Below are positions 14,538 to 60,960 of a stretch of DNA of 64,000 nt, in pieces. The notes below the pieces were generated by a model. It made no database searches, had not been told where the DNA came from, and was given only the letters and a program-made list of their open reading frames with translations. Made by a program: the position numbers and the translations under genes. The DNA lies in the NCBI RefSeq assembly GCF_038039215.1, contig NZ_JBBPCL010000001.1, forward strand, positions 3,038,001 to 3,102,000. Reading direction: 5' to 3'. This stretch comes from Pseudonocardia sp. T1-2H. Lineage in GTDB: Bacteria; Actinomycetota; Actinomycetes; Mycobacteriales; Pseudonocardiaceae. Each line of letters begins with the position of its first letter. Positions within the stretch are counted from its first letter, which is position 1.

Positions 14538-15140
14538 ATGAGGACTCGCGGCCCCGTACTGACGCTGCTCGCCGTCCTGGCGGTCGGCGTGGCGGTCTTC
14601 GCCGTGAACACCGTCCTGAGCCCGGCGACGTCCACGATCGACGCGGCGGCCGCTCCCCTCGCCGCGTCGGCCCCCGCGGACGGCGCTTCCGGGTCCTCGG
14701 ACGGTTACGGCGAGGCGGCCCCCGCGCCCGCCGACCAGCAGGCAGCCCGGGCTCCGGCGGCCCCTGCGGCCCAGGCCCCGCCGGCGGCGGCCCCCGCCAC
14801 CCGGGCTCCGGCCCAGCCGGCCGCCGGCGACACCGCGTTCGCCGGCCGCTCCGCCGGCAACCAGGTGACGCTCTCCGTCGGGGTGAAGGACGGCCAGGTG
14901 CTCGCCTACGTCTGCGACGGCAAGGGCGTCGAGGAGTGGCTGACCGGCACGATGGAGGGCAGCTCGCTGACGCTGACCGGTCCGGACGGTACGTCCATGA
15001 CGGCGGACACCACGGAGGACTCCGTCCTCGGGAACGTGTCCGTCGGCGGCAAGAGCTGGCCGTTCGCCGCACAGGCCGCGAAGCAGCAGCCCGCGGACCC
15101 CACGGACCGCGCAGCCCTGCGCAAGCTGTCGAACGCCTGA
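14538..15140 (+). CDS. Secreted or membrane-anchored Ala/Pro-rich protein of unknown function
   Basis: A 200-residue protein with an N-terminal signal or anchor (MRTRG, then a hydrophobic stretch at residues 6-26). An Ala/Pro-rich low-complexity linker spans about 35-95. The globular C-terminal domain begins near FAGRSAGNQVTLSVGVKDGQ and includes AYVCDGKGVEEWLTG. The ATG at 14538 is preferred over a GTG six bases earlier because GGAG lies 5 bases upstream of it. I do not recognise the domain. It is the first gene of the operon facing the ECF sigma factor. Confidence 0.7.
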   Translation: MRTRGPVLTLLAVLAVGVAVFAVNTVLSPATSTIDAAAAPLAASAPADGASGSSDGYGEAAPAPADQQAARAPAAPAAQAPPAAAPATRAPAQPAAGDTAFAGRSAGNQVTLSVGVKDGQVLAYVCDGKGVEEWLTGTMEGSSLTLTGPDGTSMTADTTEDSVLGNVSVGGKSWPFAAQAAKQQPADPTDRAALRKLSNA

Positions 15141-15171
15141 CCGGCCACCACGATCCCCGGAGGTACCCCGC

Positions 15172-16209
15172 GTGCGTGACACCCGGCCGTCCGATCCCGC
15201 CCTCCACGGAGGCGCGGACCCCGACCCCCAGGCCGCCTACCGCGCAGACCCGCCCACGGACCCCTGGGGCATCCCCGCGGTCCGCGGGCACGAGCACGAC
15301 GACCTCGACCCGCCCACCGGCGCGATGCGCCCCGTCCCCGGCCCGCACGACGAAGTGACCGGGCCGTTCCCGGCCGTCCACCGCAGCCCCGAGCCGTACG
15401 GCGACCCGCCCCGCGACCTCTACGGGCAGGGCGACGACGACCCGTACGCAGGCCCGTACCGGGACGACGACCCCTACGGCGACACGCTCTTCACGACCGA
15501 CCCGGACGGCCACCCCTACCCGGACGACCGTGCCTACGAGTCCCCGGTCCTCGACGAGCCCGGCTACGACGAGCCCGGCTACGACGAGCCCGGCTACGAC
15601 GAGCCCGGCTACGACGAGCCCGGCTACGACGAGCCCGGCTACGACGAGCCCGGCCTGCAGCGGCACGATGACCGCCCCGCTCCCCGGCTCGCCGCGCTGG
15701 TCGTCCCCGTCGGCGTCGGGATCGGAGTGTCGGTCGCCATCGGCGTCTACGCCCGGCTGCACGAGGGCACCGGCACCGCGATCAACCTCGCAGGCTTCTC
15801 CAGCGGCCTGGCCGCGAAGAGCTGGCTGACCGCCGCCGCGTTCGTGTTCGCCGTGATCCAGCTCTACTCGGCGATGCGGATGTACGGCCGGCTCGGCGGC
15901 GCCGCCGGCCCCCGGACCGCGTCCGCACACCGCTGGTCCGGCCGGATCGCGGTGCTGCTGACCATCCCGGTCGCCGTGCACTGCCTCTACGCGCTCGGCT
16001 ATTCCGACGCGAGCGTCCGGGTGCTCGCCCACTCGCTGCTGGGCTGCTTCTTCTACGGCGCGTTCGTCGCGAAGATGCTGCTGCTCGGCCGCCGGGACGC
16101 CCCGCGCTGGGTGATGCCGGTCTTCGGCGGCCTGGTCTTCACCGCGCTCACCGCCCTGTTCCTGACGTCGTCGGTGTGGTTCCTCAGCACCCACGGCCTC
16201 ACGTTCTGA
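15172..16209 (+). CDS. DUF6529-like multi-spanning membrane protein with DEPGY repeats
   Basis: A 345-residue protein. The first 165 residues are acidic, Pro/Asp/Tyr-rich and presumably disordered and cytoplasmic, ending in six DEPGY pentapeptides plus DEPGL. The rest has about five hydrophobic helices. His residues occur in or at the edge of helices ([24 protein letters not shown]), reminiscent of cytochrome b561 or ferric-reductase-like haem proteins. It sits between a secreted protein and a Rieske lipoprotein, so a role as the membrane electron carrier for the Rieske centre is a reasonable guess. Haem binding is not proven by sequence. GTG start, with GGAGG upstream. Confidence 0.7.
15553..15657. 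repeat. Seven in-frame 15-bp tandem repeats encoding DEPGY
   Basis: Seven consecutive units of GACGAGCCCGGCTAC (the last ending in CTG) with essentially no base differences. They encode six DEPGY units and one DEPGL in the disordered N-terminal region of the membrane protein. Near-identity at the DNA level implies recent expansion or slippage, so copy number may vary between strains. Confidence 0.9.
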
Positions 16210-16229
16210 CGCCCTCTGGAGGATCATCA

Positions 16230-16703
16230 GTGACCCCGAACACCACCGTCTCCCGGCGGGCCGTGCTCGCCGGGACCGGGGCGGCCTGCGCGGCCGGCTG
16301 CCTCGCCGTCGCCGGATGCTCGACCTACGACTCGGGCGGGGCGCCGCCCACCCCGGCGCCGCCCACCACGGCGCCGGGCGCCGCCGGAGGCGCGGGCGCG
16401 GCACCGCAAGGGGGCGGCGCCGTCCTGGCCTCGACCTCGGACGTCGGCGTCGGCTCCGGGACGATCTTCGCCGACAAGGGCGTGGTCGTCACCCAGCCCG
16501 CGGAGGGGCAGTTCAAGGCCTTCTCGACCACCTGCACGCACCAGGGCTGCACGGTCAACGCGGTGACCGGGGGCACCATCGACTGTCCGTGTCACGGCAG
16601 CAAGTTCTCGATCACCGACGGCGCCCCGACCGCGGGCCCGGCGAAGAAGCCGCTGCCGGAGAAGGCGATCACCGTCGACGGGGAGTCCATCCGTCTGGCC
16701 TGA
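16230..16703 (+). CDS. Rieske [2Fe-2S] lipoprotein
   Basis: A 157-residue protein. The N-terminus has a twin-arginine SRRAVLAGT signal and a lipobox ending at Cys30 (AVAGC), followed by a Pro/Ala linker, so a Tat-exported, lipid-anchored domain. The Rieske boxes are CTHQGC (Cys102, His104, Cys107) and CPCHGS (Cys119, Cys121, His122). Cys107 and Cys121 would form the disulfide typical of high-potential Rieske proteins. The GTG at 16230 has GGAGG 7 bases upstream. It is not part of a bc1 operon; its partner is probably the upstream DUF6529-like membrane protein. Confidence 0.9.
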
Positions 16704-34719: not shown

Positions 34720-37265
34720 TCACCCGATGGTGTCCGAGACGTTCGTGACCCAGACCACTGCCTCGCCGGCCTCGTCCGAGGCGGCCAGGTCGACCTCCGC
34801 GGTGATGGCCCAGTCGTGGTCGCCCGCGGGGTCGTCGATGACCTGCCGGACGAGCCAGCGCTCCTTCTCCTCGGAGATCGTGATGAGCCCGGGGCCGCGC
34901 GCGTCCGGCCCGATCTGGATGCCGCCCCAGCCGTGCAGCTCGAAGAAGGGCTCGAACGCCTCGCGCCAGGCGTCGGCGTTCCAGCCGGAGTCCTTGTCCA
35001 GCTCGCCGAGTGAGTCCCAGCGGTTCAGCGACGCGAGCTCGACGCGGCGGAACATCGCGTTGCGCACGAGCACCCGGAACGCCCGGATGTTGCCGGTGAC
35101 CCCGGCCGGCCCCTGGTCCAGCGTCGGCGGCGCGATCTCGTCGGTGTCCATCCCACCGCCGGCGGCGAGCTTCTCCCACTCGTCGAGCAGGCTGGAGTCC
35201 ACCTGGCGGACGAGCTCGCCCAGCCACTCGATGATGTCGGTGAGCTCCTCGGTGCGGGCGTGCTCCGGCACGGTCTGCCGCAGCGCCCGGTAGGCGTCCG
35301 CGAGGTAGCGCAGGACCAGTCCCTCGGAGCGGGCCAGCTGGTAGTACGAGACGTACTCGTGGAAGGTCATCGCCTTCTCACTCATGTCCCGGACCACGGA
35401 CTTCGGCGAGAGCCGGGCGTCCTCCACCCACGGCGCGCCCCGCCGGTAGGTCTCCAGCGCGGCGGTGAGCAGCTCGTCGAGCGGCTTGGGGTGGCTGACG
35501 TCCTCGAGCAGCGCCATGCGTTCCTCGTACTCGATGCCGTCCGCCTTCATCGCCGCGACGGCCTCCCCGCGCGCCTTGTTCTGCTGCGCGTGCAGGATCT
35601 GGCGCGGGTCGTCCAGCGTCGCCTCGATGATCGAGAGCACGTCCAGGGCGTAGCCGGGGGACTCCATGTCCAGCAGCTCGATCGCGGCCAGGGCGAACGG
35701 GGAGAGCGGCTGGTTGAGCGCGAAGTCCAGCTGCAGGTCGCCGACGACGCGCACGGTCCGGCCCTCGGCGTCGGGCTCGTCGAGCTTCTCGACGATCCCG
35801 GCGGCGAGCAGCGCCCGGTAGATCGCGATGGCCCGCAGGATGTGCTTGCGCTGGCGCGGCCGAGGCTCGTGGTTGTCCTCGAGCAGGTGGCGCATCGCGG
35901 TGAACGCGTCCCCCGGGCGGGAGATGACGTTCAGCAGCATCGCGTGGGTGACCTGGAAATGGCTGGTCAGCGGCTCGGGCTGGGCGCTCTGCAGCTTCTC
36001 GAACGACGTGGCGGACCAGCCGACGAAACCCTCCGGCGGCTGCTTGCGCACCACGCGCCGGCGCTTCTTGGGGTCGTCGCCCGCCTTCGCGAGCAGCCGG
36101 GCGTTCTCCACCTCGTGGTCCGGCGCCTCGGCGACCACGGTGCCGACCGTGTCGTACCCCGCGCGCCCGGCCCGGCCGGCGATCTGGTGGAACTCCCGGG
36201 CCTTCAACGAGCGCGTGCGCACGCCGTCGTACTTGGCGAGCGCGGTGAACAGCACGGTGCGGATCGGCACGTTGATGCCGACGCCGAGGGTGTCCGTCCC
36301 GCAGATGACCTTCAGCAGGCCGGCCTGGGCTAGGGTCTCGACGAGGCGCCGGTAGCGGGGCAGCATCCCGGCGTGGTGCACGCCGATCCCGTGCCGGACC
36401 AGCCGGGACAGCGTCTTCCCGAAGCCGGCGGTGAAGCGGAAGTTGCCGATCAGCTCGGCGATCGCCGCCTTCTCCTCCTTCGACGTGACGTTCACGCTCA
36501 TCAGCGTCTGCGCCCGTTCCACGGCGGACTGCTGGGTGAAGTGCACGACGTAGACCGGGGCCTGCTGCGTCGCCAGCAGCTCGGTGATCGTCTCGTGCAG
36601 CGGGGTCAGCACGTACTGGTAGAGCAGCGGCACCGGCCGTTCCACCGAGGTGATCTCCGCCGTCGGACGCCCGGTGCGCCGGGTCAGATCGTCCCGGAAG
36701 AAGGTCGTGTCCCCGAGCGTGGCGCTCATCAGCAGGAACTGCGCCTGCGGCAGCTCGATCAGCGGGACCTGCCAGGCCCAGCCGCGGTCCGGGTCCGCGT
36801 AGAAGTGGAACTCGTCCATGACGACCGAGCCGACGTCCGCGCCCCGGCCCTGGCGCAGCGCGAGGTTCGCGAGGATCTCCGCGGTGCAGCAGATGATCGG
36901 CGCGCCCTCGTTCACCGCCGCGTCCCCGGTCAGCATGCCGACCTTGTCCGCGCCGAACACGTCGATCAGCGCGAAGAACTTCTCGCTGACCAGCGCCTTG
37001 ATCGGGGCGGTGTAGAAGGTGCGGACCCCGCGGCTGAGCGCCGCCGCGTGCGCCGCGATCGCGACCAGGGACTTCCCCGAGCCGGTGGGCGTCGAGAGGA
37101 TGACGTTCCCCCCGGTCGCGATCTCCAGAAGGGCCTCCTCCTGCGCCGGGTAGAGCGACAGGCCGCGTTCGGAGAAGGCCCAGTCCGCGAACGTCTCGAC
37201 CAGGGTGTCGGGGTCGGCGGCGGGGGGAGGCGGTCGCTGAGCAGCGGGGCGGTCGCAGAGGTCAT
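34720..37265 (-). CDS. DEAD/DEAH-box RNA helicase with DUF3516 domain; N-terminal frameshift
   Basis: A superfamily 2 helicase of about 848 residues, Ski2/Mtr4-like in its helicase core. Motif I is TPTGSGKSLVA, motif II MDEFHFY (DEFH), motif III LMSATL, motif VI HQIAGRAGRAG, followed by the actinobacterial DUF3516 region. The authentic N-terminus is the ATG at 37265 (TSATAPLLSDRLPP). The frame changes at a G6 run at 37222-37227 (plus strand) within the first 16 codons, and one more G rejoins it to ADPDTLVETFADW. The span is 3n+2. It is divergent from the ligase-like gene with 140 bases between starts. Confidence 0.85.
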
Positions 37266-37405
37266 GGTCCCACCGATTGTCCACGATTCCCCGGACGGGT
37301 TGCGAGGCGCCGTACAACGCACCGCACCGGCGGCTGGGCGCGTTCGCCGCGCCGTACGGCCGATCGAGTGACGACGGCGCCCATCGGCGAACTACCGTGT
37401 GTCGG

Positions 37406-38984
37406 ATGAGGGGGCGCACGGCGGGCATCGGGATGCCGGAGGTCGTCCCCCCGATGCTGCCCGCGGCCGGCGAGCTTCCCGGACCCGGGCGACGGCGAGG
37501 GCTGGGCCGTCGAGTTCGCGTGGGAGGGCTTCCGCTGCCTGGCCTACGTGCGGCCCGGCCGGGTCCGGCTGCTGTCGTCCGGCGGGCGCAGCGTCACCGC
37601 CTCCTTCCCGGAGCTGCGGGTCCTGGGGGAGCGGATCGCCGGGTCGTCGGCGGGCATGATCCTCGACGGGCTGGTGGTCGCCCTGGACGAGGGCGGCCGG
37701 CCCAGTCGCCGGCCGCTGATGCGCCGCACCGCCACGGTCCGCCCGTCCGAGGGCCTGATGCGCCGGGTGCCGGTGGGCTACGTCGTCACGGACCTGCTCT
37801 GGCACGACGGCCGCTCCCTGGTCCGGACGCCCTACGCCGCCCGCAGAGAGCGGCTGGAGAGCCTGGAGCTGGGCGTCGCGCCGATCATGGTGCCGCCCTC
37901 CTTCCCCACCGACGAGGCCGAGTTCGTGATGCAGACGGCCGAGCAGTACGGCCTGGACGGGCTGCACCTCAAGCGGCTCGACGCCCCGTATGCGCCCGGC
38001 CGCCGCACCCGGCAGTGGCTGCGGGTGCCGTTGCGGCGCAGCCGCCAGGTCGTGGTGGGCGGGTGGACACCCGCGGACCCGCACAAGCCGGACAAGGTCG
38101 GCGCGGTGCTCCTCGGCCTGCCCGTCGCCGACGGGCTGCGCTACGTCGGACGGGTCGGGATCGGCTCCGGCCGCGAGCGCCGGGCGGTCCGCGAGCTGAT
38201 GCTGGAGCTGCAGCAGGACGACACGCCGTTCGGCGAGGGGCTGCCGGACCGGGTCGCCGAGGACGCCCGCTGGGTGGCGCCCCGGCTCGTCGCCGAGGTC
38301 GAGTACCAGGCGCTCACCCGCACCGGCCAGCTTCGGCTGCCGGCGTGGCGCGGCCTGTGCGAGCCGGACGAGGTGGACCCGGGCCTGTGGGACGTCGCGG
38401 ACGACGTGGCCGCGATACCGCCGGCGCCCCCCGAGCCCGAACCGGAACCCGGTCCCGGACCCGCGCCGCCGTCGGCCCCGGTGTCGTCGGCCCCGGTGTC
38501 GTCGGTGCTGAACCGGCGGCTGGAACAGCACTTCGTCTACAACTCGCTGAACACGATCGCCGCGATCACCCGCACGGACCCCGCGCGCGCCCGCGAGCTG
38601 CTGCTCGGGTTCGCCGAGCTGAGCCGGGCGGCGGACCGTGCGGACACCGGGGACATCCCGCTGGCGGACGAGCTGGACGCCGTCCGCGCCTACCTCAGCA
38701 TCGAGGGCGCCCGCTTCGGCCGCCGGCTGGCGTTCAGCGTGGGCGTGGAGCCGGGGCTCGACGAGGTCCGGATCGTGCCGCTGCAGCTGCTCGACGCCGT
38801 CAAGGCCACCGTGCAGCAGCGGATCGAGCCGCGTCCGGAGGGCGGCCGGCTGGCCGTCCGCGCCGCCGCCGCCGGGAACCGGTGCGTGGTCACGGTGACG
38901 GACGAGGGGTATCCGGACCCGGTCGTCCTCCGGCTCCCGCTGCCCGAGGCCGAGGCGGCGCCGGCCCCGATGGCCGCACCCTGA
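37406..38984 (+). pseudogene. Degenerate ATP-dependent DNA-ligase-like domain fused to a LytS-like histidine kinase segment (frameshifted as sequenced)
   Basis: GAGCTTC at 37472-37478 breaks the frame; as GAGCTC it gives GELPDPGDGEGW and a 525-residue protein (span 3n+1). Residues 10-325 align by eye with LigC/LigD-type adenylation and OB domains, but key residues are changed. Motif I reads VEFAWEGFR (Ala38 instead of the AMP-accepting Lys), motif III LDGLV instead of LDGE, motif IV DG instead of EG, and motif V RVP instead of KxK. Residues 367-500 resemble the LytS/PF06580 kinase: RRLEQHFVYNSLNTI with His375, then a weak ATPase lid VTVTDEG without an N-box Asn. A Pro/Glu linker joins them. 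The function is unknown, possibly regulatory. Confidence 0.65.
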
Positions 38985-39134
38985 GCGAGGGTTCCACCCC
39001 GTCCGTGTGAACGGCGCGTTGCCTCCATCGCGCCAAGGGTGTGACGAGTGGGCGGCGGTGTCCTCGACGGGATCAGCGGGACGCTACCGTTCGCGCATGC
39101 TCGTCGTCTCCGTCCGCGAAATCCGGGAGCCCCA

Positions 39135-41492
39135 GTGAAGCCGGATGCAGGCCGCACGTTCACGGTCGAACCGTGGGTCGTGCGGGAGCCCACGCTCGAC
39201 CTCGCCGCGCTCGGCCAGACCGAGACGGTCTTCGCCCTCTCCAACGGGCACATCGGGCTGCGCGGGAACCTGGACGAGGGCGACCCCCACCACCTGCCCG
39301 GCACCTACCTGAACTCGTTCTTCGAGGTCCGGCCGCTGCCGTACGCCGAGGGCGGCTACGGGTACCCGGAGTCCGGCCAGACGATCATCAACGTCACCAA
39401 CGGCAAGCTCATCCGGCTGCTGGTCGACGACGAGCCGTTCGACCTGCGCTACGGCAAGCTGCGCCGCCACGAGCGCGTCCTGGACCTGCGCGCGGGCACC
39501 CTGACCCGCGAGGTCGAGTGGGAGTCCCCGGCCGGGCGCGTGGTCCGGGTGCGCAGCAAGCGGCTCGTCTCGCTGACCCAGCGCGCCATCGCCGCGATCA
39601 GCTACGAGGTCGAGGTGCTGGACGAGGAGGCGCTGCTCGTCGTGCAGTCCGAGCTCGTCGCGAACGAGCAGCTGCCCACCCGCGGCAACGACGACCCCCG
39701 GCTCGAGGCCGCGCTGACCAACGCGCTGGAGCCGGAGCTGCACCGCAGCGACGAGGCCGGCGCGACGCTGGTGCACCAGACCCGGAAGTCCCAGCTGCGC
39801 GTCGGCGCGGCCATGGACCACGAGGTGTACGGGCCCGAGGGCATCAAGATCACCTCGGAGGCGACCGAGGACACCGGCCGCACCACGATCATCGGCCGGG
39901 TCAAGCCGGGCGAGACGCTCGAGGTCGTCAAGTACCTCGCCTACGGCTGGTCCTCGCAGCGCAGCCTCCCCGCGATCCACGACCAGGTCCGGGCGGCGCT
40001 CGCCGCCGCCCGCTACACCGGCTGGGAGGGCCTGCTGCGCGAGCAGGAGGGCTACCTGGACGACTTCTGGGAGACCGCGGACGTCGAGATCGACGGCGAC
40101 GCGGAGCTGCAGCAGGCGATCCGGCTCGCGACGTTCCACGTGCTGCAGGCCGGTGCCCGTGCCGAGCGCCGCTGCATCAGCGCCAAGGGCCTCACCGCGG
40201 ACGGCTACGACGGCCACACGTTCTGGGACACCGAGACCTTCTGCCTGCAGGTGCTCTCGTTCCTCGCCCCGGACGCCGCGGCCGACGCGCTGCGCTGGCG
40301 GCAGTCCATCCTGCCGTCCGCGTTCGAGCGGGCCCAGCAGCTCGGGCTCGAGGGCGCGGCGTTCCCGTGGCGCACGATCCGCGGCCAGGAGTGCTCCGGC
40401 TACTGGCCGGCCGGCACCGCCGCGTTCCACCTCAACGCGGACATCGCGGACGCCGTCCGGCGGCACGTCGCGGCGACGGGGGACACCCAGTTCGAGCTGG
40501 AGGTCGGCCTCGAGCTGTTGGTCGCCACCGCGCGGCTGTGGCGCTCGCTGGGCCACCACGACTCGGCGGGCGAGTTCCGCATCGACGGCGTGACCGGCCC
40601 GGACGAGTACTCGGCCATCGTGGACAACAACGTCTACACGAACCTGATGGCGCAGCAGAACCTGCGCTACGCCGCCGAGGTGGCCGCCAAGCACCCCCGC
40701 TCCGCGGCGAAGCTGGGCGTCAACTCGGAGGAGATGGCGAGCTGGCGGGACGCGGCCTCGGCCATGCGGATCCCGTTCGACGACGAGCTGAAGGTCCACC
40801 CGCAGTCCGAGGGCTTCACGAAGCACAAGGTCTGGGACTTCGAGAACACCCCGGCGGACACCTACCCGCTGCTGCTGCACTACCCCTACTTCGACCTCTA
40901 CCGCAAGCAGGTCATCAAGCAGGCGGACCTGGTGCTGGCCATGCAGCTGCGGCCGGACGCGTTCACCCCGGACCAGATGCGCCGCAACTTCGCCTACTAC
41001 GAGGCGATCACGGTGCGGGACTCGTCGCTCTCGGCGTGCACCCAGTCCATGGTCGCGGCCCGGGTCGGGCACCTGGACCTGGCCTACGACTACCTGGCCG
41101 AGGCCGCGCTCGTCGACCTGAACAACCTGGCCGGGAACACCGACCACGGCATGCACATCGCGTCGATGGCGGGCTCGTGGGCGGCGATCACGACCGGGCT
41201 GGGCGGCATGACCTGCGACGCCACCGGGCTGGCGTTCGCCCCGGTGCTCCCGGCCGCGCTCTCCCGGGTGTCGTTCGGGCTCCGTTACCAGGGCCGGCAC
41301 ATCCGCGTGACGATCACGCAGGAGGACGCGGAGTACCGGCTGGTCAGCGGCCCGCCGATGCGGCTGCGCCACTACGACGAGCCGATCGCCCTCGCCGAGG
41401 AGCCGCAGGTCCGCAAGCTGCCGGCACCGCCGTTCGTCGAGCCGGTGGAGCAGCCCTACGGCCGGGCCCCGCGCCAGCGCCACCACGGCTGA
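39135..41492 (+). CDS. Glycoside hydrolase family 65 protein (disaccharide phosphorylase type)
   Basis: A 785-residue GH65 enzyme. The N-terminal beta-sandwich has ALSNGHIGLRGNLDEGDPHH and the (alpha/alpha)6 barrel has HTFWDTETF. The general acid Glu lies in GPDEYSAIVDNNVYTN. NTDHGMHIASMAGSW and the C-terminal GLRYQGRHIRVTI complete the family pattern. Members are maltose, trehalose or kojibiose phosphorylases, plus some hydrolases; the substrate is not resolved. The GTG at 39135 has GGGAG 5 bases upstream, which is why the longer open frame is not used. Confidence 0.9.
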   Translation: MKPDAGRTFTVEPWVVREPTLDLAALGQTETVFALSNGHIGLRGNLDEGDPHHLPGTYLNSFFEVRPLPYAEGGYGYPESGQTIINVTNGKLIRLLVDDEPFDLRYGKLRRHERVLDLRAGTLTREVEWESPAGRVVRVRSKRLVSLTQRAIAAISYEVEVLDEEALLVVQSELVANEQLPTRGNDDPRLEAALTNALEPELHRSDEAGATLVHQTRKSQLRVGAAMDHEVYGPEGIKITSEATEDTGRTTIIGRVKPGETLEVVKYLAYGWSSQRSLPAIHDQVRAALAAARYTGWEGLLREQEGYLDDFWETADVEIDGDAELQQAIRLATFHVLQAGARAERRCISAKGLTADGYDGHTFWDTETFCLQVLSFLAPDAAADALRWRQSILPSAFERAQQLGLEGAAFPWRTIRGQECSGYWPAGTAAFHLNADIADAVRRHVAATGDTQFELEVGLELLVATARLWRSLGHHDSAGEFRIDGVTGPDEYSAIVDNNVYTNLMAQQNLRYAAEVAAKHPRSAAKLGVNSEEMASWRDAASAMRIPFDDELKVHPQSEGFTKHKVWDFENTPADTYPLLLHYPYFDLYRKQVIKQADLVLAMQLRPDAFTPDQMRRNFAYYEAITVRDSSLSACTQSMVAARVGHLDLAYDYLAEAALVDLNNLAGNTDHGMHIASMAGSWAAITTGLGGMTCDATGLAFAPVLPAALSRVSFGLRYQGRHIRVTITQEDAEYRLVSGPPMRLRHYDEPIALAEEPQVRKLPAPPFVEPVEQPYGRAPRQRHHG

Positions 41493-48744: not shown

Positions 48745-49934
48745 ATGGCCATCGACTCGTTACCCGGGGACTTCTTCCACTACGCCGACGCGCTCACCGA
48801 CGACGAGCAGAAGGTGCTCGCCCGCGTCCGCGAGTTCTGCCGCACCGAGATCGCCCCGATCGCGCTCGACGCCTGGACGAAGGCCGAGTTCCCGCACGAG
48901 ATCGTTCCGCGCTTCGCCGCCCTGGACATCGCCGCGCTGCCCTACGAGGGCCTCGAGGGGCCGGCCGCGCGCCGGACGCTGATCGGGTTCCTGTCGATGG
49001 AGCTGGCGCACGCGGACCCGTCGCTGAACAGCTTCTTCGGCATCCACAACGGCCTCGCGATGGGCAGCATCGACCTCTGCGGCTCCGCCGAGCAGCGTGA
49101 GCGGTGGCTCCCGGCGATGGGCCGGATGGAGAAGATCGGCGCGTTCGGACTGACCGAGCCGCACGGCGGGTCCGACGTCGCGCAGGGCCTGGAGACCACC
49201 GCCCGCCGCGAGGGCGACGAATGGGTCCTGAACGGGGAGAAGCGCTGGATCGGCAACGGGACGTTCGCCGACCTCGTCGTCGTCTGGGCCCGCGACGTCA
49301 CCGACGAGCCGGAGAAGGGGCCGGTCCGGGGTTCGTCGTGGAGCAGGACAACCCCGGCATGACCACGACGAAGATAGAGAACAAGATCGCCCTGCGGACG
49401 GTGCAGAACGCGGACATCGTACTGACGGACTGCCGCGTCCCGGAGTCCGACCGGCTGCAGGAGGCGAACTCGTTCAAGGACACGAACAAGGTCCTGCGGC
49501 GCACCCGCGGCGGCGTGGCCTGGGGCGCCACCGGCACGATGATGGCGGCGTACGAGATCGCGCTGGACTACGCCAGGGAACGCGAGCAGTTCGGCCGCCC
49601 GATCGCCGGGTTCCAGCTGGTCCAGGACCTGCTCGTGCGCATGCTGGGCAACGTGACGGCCTCGCTGGGCATGGCCGTGCGCCTGGCCGAGATGCAGGAC
49701 GCCGGCACCGCGAAGGACGAGCACGCCGCGCTGGCCAAGGAGTTCACCACCACCAGGATGCGCGAGACGGTGTCCCTGGCCCGGGAGGTCGTCGGCGGCA
49801 ACGGGGTGGTGCTGGACTACGGCGTCGCCAAGTACTTCGCCGACGCCGAGGCGCTGTATTCCTTCGAGGGCACCAGGCAGATCAACACCCTGGTCGTCGG
49901 GCGGTCGATCACGGGGCTGTCGGCGTTCGTCTGA
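48745..49934 (+). pseudogene. Acyl-CoA dehydrogenase (glutaryl-CoA dehydrogenase-like), frameshifted as sequenced
   Basis: About 396 residues. N-terminal FAD-binding [14 protein letters not shown] and [11 protein letters not shown] are in the first frame. [32 protein letters not shown] and the catalytic [18 protein letters not shown] are in the second. The YSFEGTxxIN ending is typical of glutaryl-CoA dehydrogenases. The break is a G4 run at 49328-49331, and a fifth G gives [13 protein letters not shown]. The span is 3n+2, as expected for one lost base. It probably oxidises glutaryl-CoA or a similar acyl-CoA. Confidence 0.88.
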
Positions 49935-59061: not shown

Positions 59062-60028
59062 TCAGGGGCGCGCGTGCATCCGCACGTGGGTGCCCGAGGC
59101 GTCCCGCCAGACGTGCAGCAGATCGCACAGCTGCCGCGCGATCCACACCCCGCGGCCCCGCGGGTCCTTGGGGTGCGGCGCCTTGAGGCCGGGCAGCCGC
59201 TCACGCAGCGTGCCTCCGTCGTGCACCTCGCAGACCAGCTCCGTCGGCGAGGCCCACAGACACAGCTCCGCGTCCGCCGTCCCGTGCTCGACGGCGTTGG
59301 TGGCCACCTCGTTGACCGCGAGCACCAGGTCCTCGCCCCGGGCCCGCTCGAACCCGACCAGCCCGACCGCCGTCTCGACGGCGCCCCGCACGTCGTGCAG
59401 CTGCCAGGAGTTGTACGTCAACCGCAGGTCGGGCGGTCCCAGCACGACCGGCGACTGCGCCGGACGGCTCCGCAGGACCTCCACCGGACACCGGTGCGCG
59501 GGGTTCTCGCGGGCTACCCCCGGCGAGGAGCAGCGCGTGGTTGGCCCGGGCGCCCTCCAGCACCTCCAGGTGCAGCGGGTACGACGGGTAGAAGCAGACC
59601 ATCGTGACGTCCAGGTCCGCGACCGCCACGTTCAGCGCCGCGTCCAGCTCGGTCCAGTAGCCGCCGTCGGCGCCGTCGAGCCGCTCGTCGTGCACGGCGA
59701 CGACGGTGACCGCCGGCCCGTCCCGGCACAGCATCCGCAGCTCGCGGCCGCGCAGGGCGGCGGTGGTCTGACCGGACCCCTCCGCGGCACCCGACACCGA
59801 GCTCACCGGAGGGACCGCGGGCGCGAGCGAGACGAGCTCGGCGCTCCCGAGGTCGCCCCGGATCGCCTGCTCGACGAGGCCCGGCGCGGCCAGCGCCACC
59901 CGCTCCCCGCGGTCGAGCGCCTCGCGGACCAGCGGCACGGCCTGGGCGAGGAGGTCGTCCGTGGTGTCGTAAAAGGCGACGGCGTGCCGCAGGGCGAGGC
60001 CCGCGGGGGTGCGGGGGGTGACCTTCAC
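59062..60028 (-). pseudogene. MEDS sensor-domain protein with HATPase (anti-sigma kinase type) domain, frameshifted as sequenced
   Basis: The N-terminal 170 residues form a MEDS (DcmR-like) sensory domain: LRHAVAFYDTTDDLL, REALDRGERVALAAPG and VTMVCFYPSYPLHLEVLEG. The C-terminal part is an RsbW-like ATPase with LVLAVNEVATNAVEHG (N-box) and DPRGRGVWIARQLCDLL (G-box). The two are split by a C5 run (59517-59521, plus strand). With four bases the frame continues LLAGVARENPAHRCPVEVL. The span is 3n+1. The GTG at 60028 overlaps the stop of the MEDS-STAS gene (GTGA). Confidence 0.8.
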
Positions 60029-60960
60029 TCGGGGTCCGCCTCCTCGGCCGCTCCTGGCTCCGGGAGCTCCTCGATGGACAGCTGCCGCGCGAACGCCGCG
60101 CCGCAGCGGTCGAACACGCGCTGCACCCGGGGCCGCACCCCGGTCAGGACGAGCCGGTGGGTGTCCGGGAAGCCCTCGGCCGCCTGCACCACGCTCACCG
60201 CCGCCGTCACGTCCAGGAACCGCAGGGACGCGAGGTTGAGGACGATGTCGTTCGGGGCGTTCGGCGCGCGCAGGACCTTGTCCAGGTCCCCGAGCAGCAG
60301 CGTCGTGATCATCGGGCGGTTGCTGTGGTCGATCTCGCCGGCCAGCCGGGCCCGGCCCAGCCCGGTCCGGGTGATCCGCAGCAGACCGTCGTCGTACGCG
60401 GCCGGCGCGGCGACCTCCGCACGATGCACGGCGCGCATCTCCTCGATCTGATCGTCGGTGTACCGGGTGCGGTCGTAGAGGCACAGGGCGCGGGCCGAGT
60501 CCCGCTTGCGCACCACCTCGTCCAGTACGGCGTCGTAGCTGCTCAACGGGATGCCGGCGGGGCGGGCCGCGCCGTAGCTCAGCTGGCCCGTCATCCGGAA
60601 CCCCGCCCAGCCGTCCCGCTCGGAGAGGTCGATGTAGCTGTTCAGCAGCTCCTGGACGGCCGGCGGCGGGGCGTGGAAGGCGCCGCGGGTGACGTCCGAG
60701 GAGACGATCTCGAGCTGGCCGCGGCGCAGCGGATCGGCCACCGCGACACGGTCGTCCAGCAGGCGTTCGAGGACCGCGTCCGACGTCCCGTCGTCGAAGT
60801 AGTAGACCTTCTCGCCCCGGGCGAGGCCGGCGGCGAGGAAGGCCGCCGTCAGCTCCCAGAGCTCCTCGTCACTGACCGGTACCGCGCACGCGTGATCGGC
60901 GGATGTCAGTTCATCCGTCGCTCCCACCAGTGCGTCCCCGCCGTTCGCGCTGCGTGACAA
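60025..60960 (-). CDS. MEDS-STAS protein, anti-sigma antagonist type
   Basis: A protein of up to 311 residues. The MEDS domain (about 20-190) has HACAVPVSDEELWELTAAFL, GEKVYYFDD and GFRMTGQLSYG. The STAS domain (about 205-300) has LAGEIDHSNRPMIT and DIVLNLASLRFLDVTAA, with a Leu-Arg-Phe-Leu-Asp strand in place of the usual phosphorylatable Ser. That suggests an altered switch. The first codon is TTG at 60960; GTG 60927 is an alternative start. It is cotranscribed with the MEDS-HATPase gene, forming a likely sensor/antagonist pair. Confidence 0.8.
   Translation of the reverse strand: MSRSANGGDALVGATDELTSADHACAVPVSDEELWELTAAFLAAGLARGEKVYYFDDGTSDAVLERLLDDRVAVADPLRRGQLEIVSSDVTRGAFHAPPPAVQELLNSYIDLSERDGWAGFRMTGQLSYGAARPAGIPLSSYDAVLDEVVRKRDSARALCLYDRTRYTDDQIEEMRAVHRAEVAAPAAYDDGLLRITRTGLGRARLAGEIDHSNRPMITTLLLGDLDKVLRAPNAPNDIVLNLASLRFLDVTAAVSVVQAAEGFPDTHRLVLTGVRPRVQRVFDRCGAAFARQLSIEELPEPGAAEEADPE

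Follow-up and report, generated by a model that had tools for sequence, protein, structure and literature searches.

The locus considered here raises the question of whether a DNA ligase-like domain that has no AMP-accepting lysine and a degenerate LytS-type histidine kinase are really parts of one protein, and what such a protein could do. The first-pass annotation of the window, the whole stretch of 64,000 nucleotides of the Pseudonocardia sp. T1-2H genome that was analysed, described them as one reading frame after a single-base correction and proposed a pseudoenzyme that binds nicked DNA or nucleotides and reports to a partner.

Organisation of the gene

The ligase-like and kinase-like halves are encoded at positions 37482–38984 of the forward strand, with a stop-free frame of 500 residues at 37482–38981. 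The GC3 of this frame is 0.968 versus 0.798 and 0.532 in the other two forward frames, and the coding bias is as intact as first described. A profile search gave Pfam matches over the cut-offs for DNA_ligase_A_M (PF01068, 2.1e-18, residues 6–181), DNA_ligase_A_C (PF04679, 3.1e-16, residues 204–292) and His_kinase (PF06580, 8.4e-15, residues 342–416). They correspond to the nucleotidyltransferase (NTase) domain of a pseudo-ligase (37482–38039), its C-terminal OB-fold domain (38040–38366) and a LytS-type dimerisation/phosphotransfer (DHp) domain (38505–38729). The OB-fold and DHp domains are joined by a Pro/Glu-rich linker (38367–38504), and the frame ends with a degenerate, shortened ATPase (CA) remnant (38730–38981), in which motif comparison found neither the N-box Asn nor the G1 box.

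The N-terminal 16 residues, MPEVVPPMLPAAGELP (37433–37480, +), are encoded in this assembly in a frame other than that of the rest of the gene; homologues have MPDLVPPMLPAAGELP-like starts in the same frame as the remainder. Two near relatives, G070 (L021/L177, 93% identical) and G071 (L022, 84–85%), read through in a single uninterrupted frame, and the window has one additional base relative to them, lying between 37476 and 37482. The single-base correction was therefore right, and its place is the very start of the gene, not the region between the domains. An acyl-CoA dehydrogenase gene of the window (48745–49934) is also split, into two overlapping frames, and an assembly indel is therefore a fair reading of the extra base in the fusion gene, the alternative being a real mutation.

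Distribution of the fusion

Fusion loci were read from 83 genomes, one from each, belonging to four genera of one family: 57 from Pseudonocardia, 14 from Actinomycetospora (g34), 10 from a genus designated g88 and two from another, g107. The proteins of 82 of the 83 loci are distinct in sequence, L035 being identical to L036. Both halves and the H-box lie within a single open frame in 81 of the 83 loci, and the other two are truncated by contig ends. Such conservation of the same fusion excludes chance. Neither an intact KxDG motif nor two separate genes were found among the fusion loci read: the motif I lysine is present in 0/83, and each of the 81 uncut loci has one frame, so that both the loss of the lysine and the fusion are conserved.

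The Pseudonocardia sample comprised 62 genomes. Besides the 57 from which the locus was read, there are two (G057 and G006) in which the halves were matched on short contigs, and three others (G021, G074 and G075), all of them fragmented drafts, that gave no fusion at the thresholds used. The family sample comprised 390 genomes of 46 genera, and five Actinomycetospora fusions were matched in it via the ligase half alone. The genome G707 (g107) carries a second fusion copy, not included in the 83, with FTWDG as motif I. The kinase half was unmatched in six ligase-half loci of other genera (L164–L169, of which L169 is truncated by a contig end). Outside the family, no listed match covered both halves among 394 genomes at the class level and 397 at the order level, in a search that can miss fusions.

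The ligase half

The nearest solved chains by sequence profile are those of the LigD ligase domain (1vs0 and 6nhz, about 2e-68, profile positions 1–302). Motif comparison upheld the catalytic substitutions reported for the window protein. Motif I (E-F-A-W-E-G, 37512–37529; EFAWEGFR in full) has Ala at residue 13 in place of the AMP-accepting Lys, motif III (L-D-G-L, 37662–37673) has Leu64 in place of Glu, motif IV (D-G-L-H-L-K, 37956–37973) has Asp159 in place of Glu and retains Lys164, and motif V (W-L-R-V-P, 38016–38030) has Arg181 in place of Lys.

Across the fusions, the motif III Glu is, like the motif I Lys, found in 0/83, the motif V Lys181 in 6/83 and the motif IV Glu in 12/83. The motif I residue is Ala, Gly or Asp in the main Pseudonocardia clade, Val, Tyr and Ala in three Pseudonocardia eucalypti-like loci, Val, Leu or Ala in Actinomycetospora, Ser, Arg or Gly in g88 and Thr in g107. 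The lysine was present in 23/23 comparison ligases of the same family. These were taken from the family search or selected because they resemble a query with the lysine, and they exclude five Ku-adjacent ligase-like genes that, like the fusions, lack it. Glu64 and Lys181 were both present in the 20 ligases compared residue by residue. A second motif V lysine was dropped as a sign of ligase death; it is absent in 20/20 comparison ligases as well and is no test.

When the 81 fusions were compared with these 20 ligases, Trp8, Gly16, Arg18, Asp62, Gly63, Asp104, Arg121, Arg122, Tyr170, Gly173, Trp179, Trp195 and Trp264 proved to be kept at 99–100%. No fusion keeps Lys13, Arg33, Glu64 or His84, while Lys181 is kept in 7% and Glu159 in 15%; the ligase-invariant positions 76, 80, 83, 113, 146 and 198 are likewise lost, and many others are mixed. 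This pattern suggests a fold maintained under selection without its key chemistry, and nick sealing and adenylation are predicted to have been lost. Arg33, which we take to be a nick-phosphate contact in ligases, is invariant in 20/20 ligases and replaced in 81/81 fusions. This speaks against canonical nick binding and weakens the earlier suggestion that the protein binds nicked DNA.

It could be supposed that the domain is still a cryptic enzyme, in which a migrated lysine or another nucleophile in the pocket supports nucleotidyl transfer. The fold residues are kept, and migrated residues are known in some pseudoenzymes, according to the available part of PMC10211241. Nevertheless, all 83 loci lack both the motif I Lys and the motif III Glu, and 77 lack the motif V Lys as well, which makes this extremely improbable.

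Another explanation would be an adenine-nucleotide sensor, in which the NTase pocket binds ATP, AMP or a related ligand without transfer and informs the kinase of the energy or nucleotide state. All 81 fusions compared retain Glu11 and Arg18, whose positions in ligases presumably recognise adenine and ribose, and position 164 of motif IV carries Lys in 56 of them and Arg in the other 25. The available part of PMC10653868 also describes a LytS-type kinase, BtsS, that senses a metabolite, pyruvate. Set against this are the absence of the motif III Glu and the near absence of the motif IV Glu and motif V Lys. The motif IIIa aromatic residue 103, to which we ascribe a stacking role, is lost in the Pseudonocardia clade and kept in Actinomycetospora and g88/g107. 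Since it also leaves the adjacency of Ku genes (see below) unexplained, a nucleotide sensor seems distinctly unlikely.

The kinase half

The phospho-accepting His noted at first is His350 (codon 38529–38531, +), and it is retained, together with the Phe and Asn of the HFxxN motif, in all 81 fusions that reach the H-box. The N-box is indeed missing from the window protein, where Ala442 occupies the position of its Asn. In the 26 fusions of Actinomycetospora, g88 and g107, both the N-box Asn and G1 are present without exception. The P. eucalypti-like group has the N-box Asn in 1/3 and the DxGxG string in 0/3, and the other Pseudonocardia fusions have them in 0/52 and 2/54, respectively. From the H-box onwards the protein has a median of 144 residues in the main Pseudonocardia clade versus 176–197 in the other groups. 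HATPase_c was found over the Pfam cut-off in L048 (Actinomycetospora), L160 (g88), L163 (g107) and L020 (P. eucalypti-like), and was below the cut-off or absent in L049 (P. eucalypti), the window protein and L002. The first description of both halves as catalytically compromised thus holds for the window species and probably does not describe the original state: with the N-box and G1 intact in 26/26 sister-genus fusions, a protein dead in both halves looks derived.

The canonical LytS of the window's genome consists of GAF, His_kinase and HATPase_c domains, with GAF in the place of the pseudo-ligase, and has a LytTR regulator gene close by. The identity of the DHp domain to this LytS is 48% for the window fusion and 58–76% for six other fusions; the identity to a second LytS paralogue (43–55%) is lower in each case. 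A solved chain, 6swj, named only "Histidine kinase", matches the kinase half by profile at 1.3e-22. No Pfam match to 5TMR-LYT was obtained for seven fusions scanned or for the canonical LytS of this genome.

Origin and evolution

In the ligase tree (44 rows) the fusions form one clade (97/90) nested within Lys-bearing ligases, and the lysine label needs one change among the 44 rows. A separate origin of the g88/g107 fusions was considered, and their grouping with the canonical ligases of g88 was rejected (p-AU 0.000115). The tree of the kinase half, made by a quick method from 26 fusions and 23 LytS sequences (about every third LytS locus and the window genome's own), also places the fusions in one group (95), together with Pseudonocardiaceae LytS at 87. 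It contains the same subgroups as the ligase tree and a long branch (0.97) leading to the degenerate Pseudonocardia set. The position of the three P. eucalypti-like sequences differs between the trees, being with g88/g107 for the ligase half (83/75) and with Actinomycetospora and Pseudonocardia for the kinase half (87), and is firm in neither. The trees of both halves fit one fusion event, and the lysine appears to have been lost before the fusion or soon after it. The earlier state was probably a dead ligase joined to a kinase with an intact sequence, and decay of the ATPase would have followed in the main Pseudonocardia clade and, in part, among the P. eucalypti-like loci.

The pairwise rates, of which only the order of the parts is used because third-position saturation inflates absolute dN/dS, agree with a later ATPase decay in the main Pseudonocardia clade. 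The medians for this clade (1319 pairs) are 0.325 for DHp, 0.67–0.71 for the ligase parts, 0.925 for CA and 1.33 for the linker; in Actinomycetospora and g88, where CA is intact (185 pairs), they are 0.23 for DHp, 0.32 for CA, 0.41–0.45 for the ligase parts and 0.69 for the linker. DHp thus evolves slowest and the linker fastest.

A decaying relic, heading for loss and now functionless, if only in the strain of the window, would account for the frameshift, for the three fragmented Pseudonocardia drafts of 62 that gave no fusion, and for dN/dS between the window and its nearest relative, G070, of 0.53 for the whole protein and 1.8 (few changes) for CA. The corresponding values for G071 are 0.27 and 0.38. 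Against decay, the ligase part gives dN/dS of 0.30 versus G070 and 0.22 versus G071, and DHp gives 0 and 0.13; 57 Pseudonocardia genomes yielded the gene and two more have pieces of both halves, and the similarly split acyl-CoA dehydrogenase fits assembly indels. We consider a relic very unlikely.

Genomic neighbourhood

A DUF3516 DEAD-box helicase gene (34720–37317, −; start codon uncertain; PF12029, 2.8e-214) is divergent from the fusion gene, as had been noted. The same arrangement was observed in 18 of the 19 wide-flank Pseudonocardia loci with that side in view (L118–L137 without the P. eucalypti-like L131). Among the loci from the other three genera covered by the synteny comparison, none has the helicase beside the fusion; its limitation to Pseudonocardia means that it is not the telling neighbour, and it was rejected as an ancestral partner. 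Downstream, a GH65 glycoside hydrolase/phosphorylase gene (39048–41492, +) follows the fusion, and GH65 occurs in this place in 17/17 Pseudonocardia loci with that side in view. A HAD gene (assigned by Pfam in one member) lies between the two in 16 of these 17. It is missing between 38984 and 39048 in the window, and also in the near relative G070 (L177/L038).

In 10/10 g88 loci Ku immediately precedes the fusion and is read in the same direction; it is cut by or at the contig edge in L155, L156 and L161. In both g107 genomes Ku is convergent and next to a fusion, in G707 to the second copy (the other genome is G706); the flanks of the first G707 copy contain no Ku. It was not seen in the flanks (about 1.5–5 kb) of the 57 Pseudonocardia loci, and in four Actinomycetospora genomes examined it lies 8.6–11.1 kb from the fusion, which hints faintly at a link. 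All 27 genomes tested possess Ku. With Ku distant or unseen in the Actinomycetospora and Pseudonocardia flanks, the link is strong only in g88 and g107.

The neighbourhood and the kinase sequences bear on the possibility of a scaffold without phospho-signalling, whose DHp domain only dimerises so that a two-headed pseudo-ligase tethers Ku-bound ends or recruits repair proteins. Loss of the N-box Asn in 52/52 Pseudonocardia fusions outside the P. eucalypti-like group, the slowness of DHp relative to CA (0.325 versus 0.925) and the Ku adjacency in g88 are all consistent with it. However, mere dimerisation should not need the His, Phe and Asn of HFxxN, which are kept in 81/81, and the N-box and G1 have been preserved in 26/26 fusions of three genera. 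A pure scaffold is therefore rather unlikely.

A second set of ligase-like genes lacking the motif I Lys (YEVDWSGIR, YEVDWAGVR and YEVRWTGLR) was observed in four Actinomycetospora genomes and one g107 genome, divergent from an adjoining Ku gene (L210 4135–4974, L211 12404–13111, L212 2446–3147, L213 within 14550–16247, and L208 5007–5564). The two that were scanned gave a match to the NTase domain and to no other. In the genome of the window, the corresponding gene next to Ku (L172 4962–5897) is longer and keeps the lysine. Ku-linked pseudo-ligases may have arisen twice.

In 13/13 wide Actinomycetospora loci (L139–L151) genes of one family lie upstream of the fusion on the same strand. This family is anti-sigma-like, with a zf-HC2 match just below the cut-off in L212, and is mostly preceded by an ECF-sigma-like gene.

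Output partner and promoter

None of the 15 genomes tested, several of them drafts, has a LytTR match on the fusion's contig at a distance of 100 kb or less, and the partner is therefore inferred. In five of the 15 (G326, G467, G602, G603 and G607) there is a single LytTR match, near the canonical LytS, and the PF06580 matches are just two, the canonical LytS and the fusion; the other ten have more LytTR matches. As LytR is the only LytTR-type target found in these five genomes, it is, by exclusion, the likeliest target of the fusion. LytS-type kinases might phosphorylate regulators of other classes.

A DNA-damage promoter was not accepted. No position-conserved site was seen in ten examples viewed of SOS or PafBC-like boxes upstream of the 83 loci. 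Matches were commoner than in a crude block shuffle (SOS with three mismatches, 38/83 versus 24/249; PafBC-like with two to three mismatches, 28/83 versus 23/249), an excess that has no further explanation. The SOS examples near −420 (L002 and L008) fall inside the helicase coding sequence and were for this reason not counted as evidence.

Possible function

The sequences indicate that, in the family of Pseudonocardia, one fusion joined an NHEJ-type (LigD/LigC-like) ligase module to the DHp and ATPase core of LytS. According to the available part of PMC9638933, the KD of mycobacterial Ku for the LigD ligase domain in isolation is 81.4 nM; its authors regard the polymerase domain as the primary Ku site and tie contacts between the Ku core and the ligase domain to stimulated ligation. 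By analogy, a ligase domain stripped of its chemistry could keep the Ku docking, which leads to the reading of the fusion as a Ku/DNA-break receptor.

In such a mechanism, the pseudo-ligase would dock on Ku and/or DNA ends without sealing them, and the break-bound state would switch the attached LytS-type dimer. In the genera with an intact ATPase (Actinomycetospora, g88 and g107) the protein would act as a soluble histidine kinase, with LytR as the likeliest target. In Pseudonocardia, including the window's strain, where the ATPase has decayed, it would act through the conserved His and DHp dimer alone, possibly as a partner, phospho-acceptor or phosphate sink for the canonical LytS/LytR. That the fusion acts as a Ku/DNA-break sensor upstream of LytR, which in Pseudonocardia has become a pseudo-kinase, is put forward tentatively as the preferred reading, in which we infer the docking, the signal and the target. 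A bolder form of it seems doubtful: Ku at a break would recruit the dead NHEJ ligase, which serves a LytS-type kinase as its sensor, and the state of end joining would thereby control the LytR regulon, the doubly dead receptor of Pseudonocardia working on the canonical LytS/LytR. Counted against the Ku/LytR reading are the lack of a LytTR neighbour and, in Pseudonocardia, of a Ku neighbour, the loss of Arg33, the lack of a clear damage-type promoter and the frameshift in the window.

Eukaryotes signal double-strand breaks via Ku-linked kinases; we know of no bacterial double-strand-break signalling via two-component kinases. A dead break-repair ligase at the front end of a signalling kinase, present in Pseudonocardia and a few soil-dwelling relatives, hints at signalling of broken DNA in bacteria, and if the Ku reading is true, break signalling through a histidine kinase would be a new kind of system. 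The reuse of a repair enzyme as a kinase sensor makes this idea directly testable. Within the family one can also trace how a kinase that was apparently active turned into a double pseudoenzyme, a natural case of enzymes becoming receptors.

Comparison with known systems

The fusion shares the NTase and OB folds with the LigD ligase domain (M. tuberculosis Rv0938; 1vs0, 6nhz) and with actinobacterial LigC/LigD, among which the fusions nest in the tree, and in g88/g107 it has Ku beside it. In contrast to these ligases, it has lost the AMP-accepting Lys and the motif III Glu in all cases and the motif V Lys in nearly all. Unlike LigD, it gives no match to a Pol or phosphoesterase domain and has a kinase attached instead. 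The operon-like order of Ku followed by a ligase-like gene in g88 resembles the two-protein bacterial NHEJ system of Ku plus LigD, but the ligase-like partner of Ku is here devoid of the sealing residues and carries a signalling kinase.

With the LytS-type kinases (canonical LytS, BtsS, 6swj) the fusion shares the PF06580 DHp domain with HFxxN, HATPase_c in the sister-genus fusions and the placement with Pseudonocardiaceae LytS in the kinase tree. It differs from them in having a pseudo-ligase as input, rather than GAF or 5TMR-LYT, in having no LytTR gene nearby and, in the clade of the window, in the absence of the N-box and G1. DivL is a degenerate histidine kinase that signals without the usual catalysis; the fusion is also a kinase relative, here with a dead-enzyme sensor, the His kept and the ATPase lost. 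The 5TMR-LYT membrane domain is named as the characteristic input of LytS-type kinases in the available part of PMC10653868.

The first-pass annotation knew of no described system with this architecture, and no description of a pseudo-ligase/LytS fusion was found in the open-access literature searched (titles and beginnings of abstracts). The available part of a study of the Streptomyces NHEJ gene set (PMC5124664) does not mention a histidine kinase. Among histidine kinases, the protein would stand out by its input domain, of which no earlier description was found in that literature.

Other observations on the window

Three fusions (P0001, L048 and L160) gave no PADLOC match, and assignment to a defence system was not accepted. 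Parts of the DUF3516 helicase match PDC-M23B (5.5e-27) and HamB-type helicases (best 1.4e-21) in PADLOC, with 44 families in all at E 0.01, probably due to the shared helicase core. The term DUF3516 was not found in the open-access literature searched. Elsewhere in the window, the gene at 60025–60927 (−) encodes a MEDS sensory domain fused to a STAS domain.
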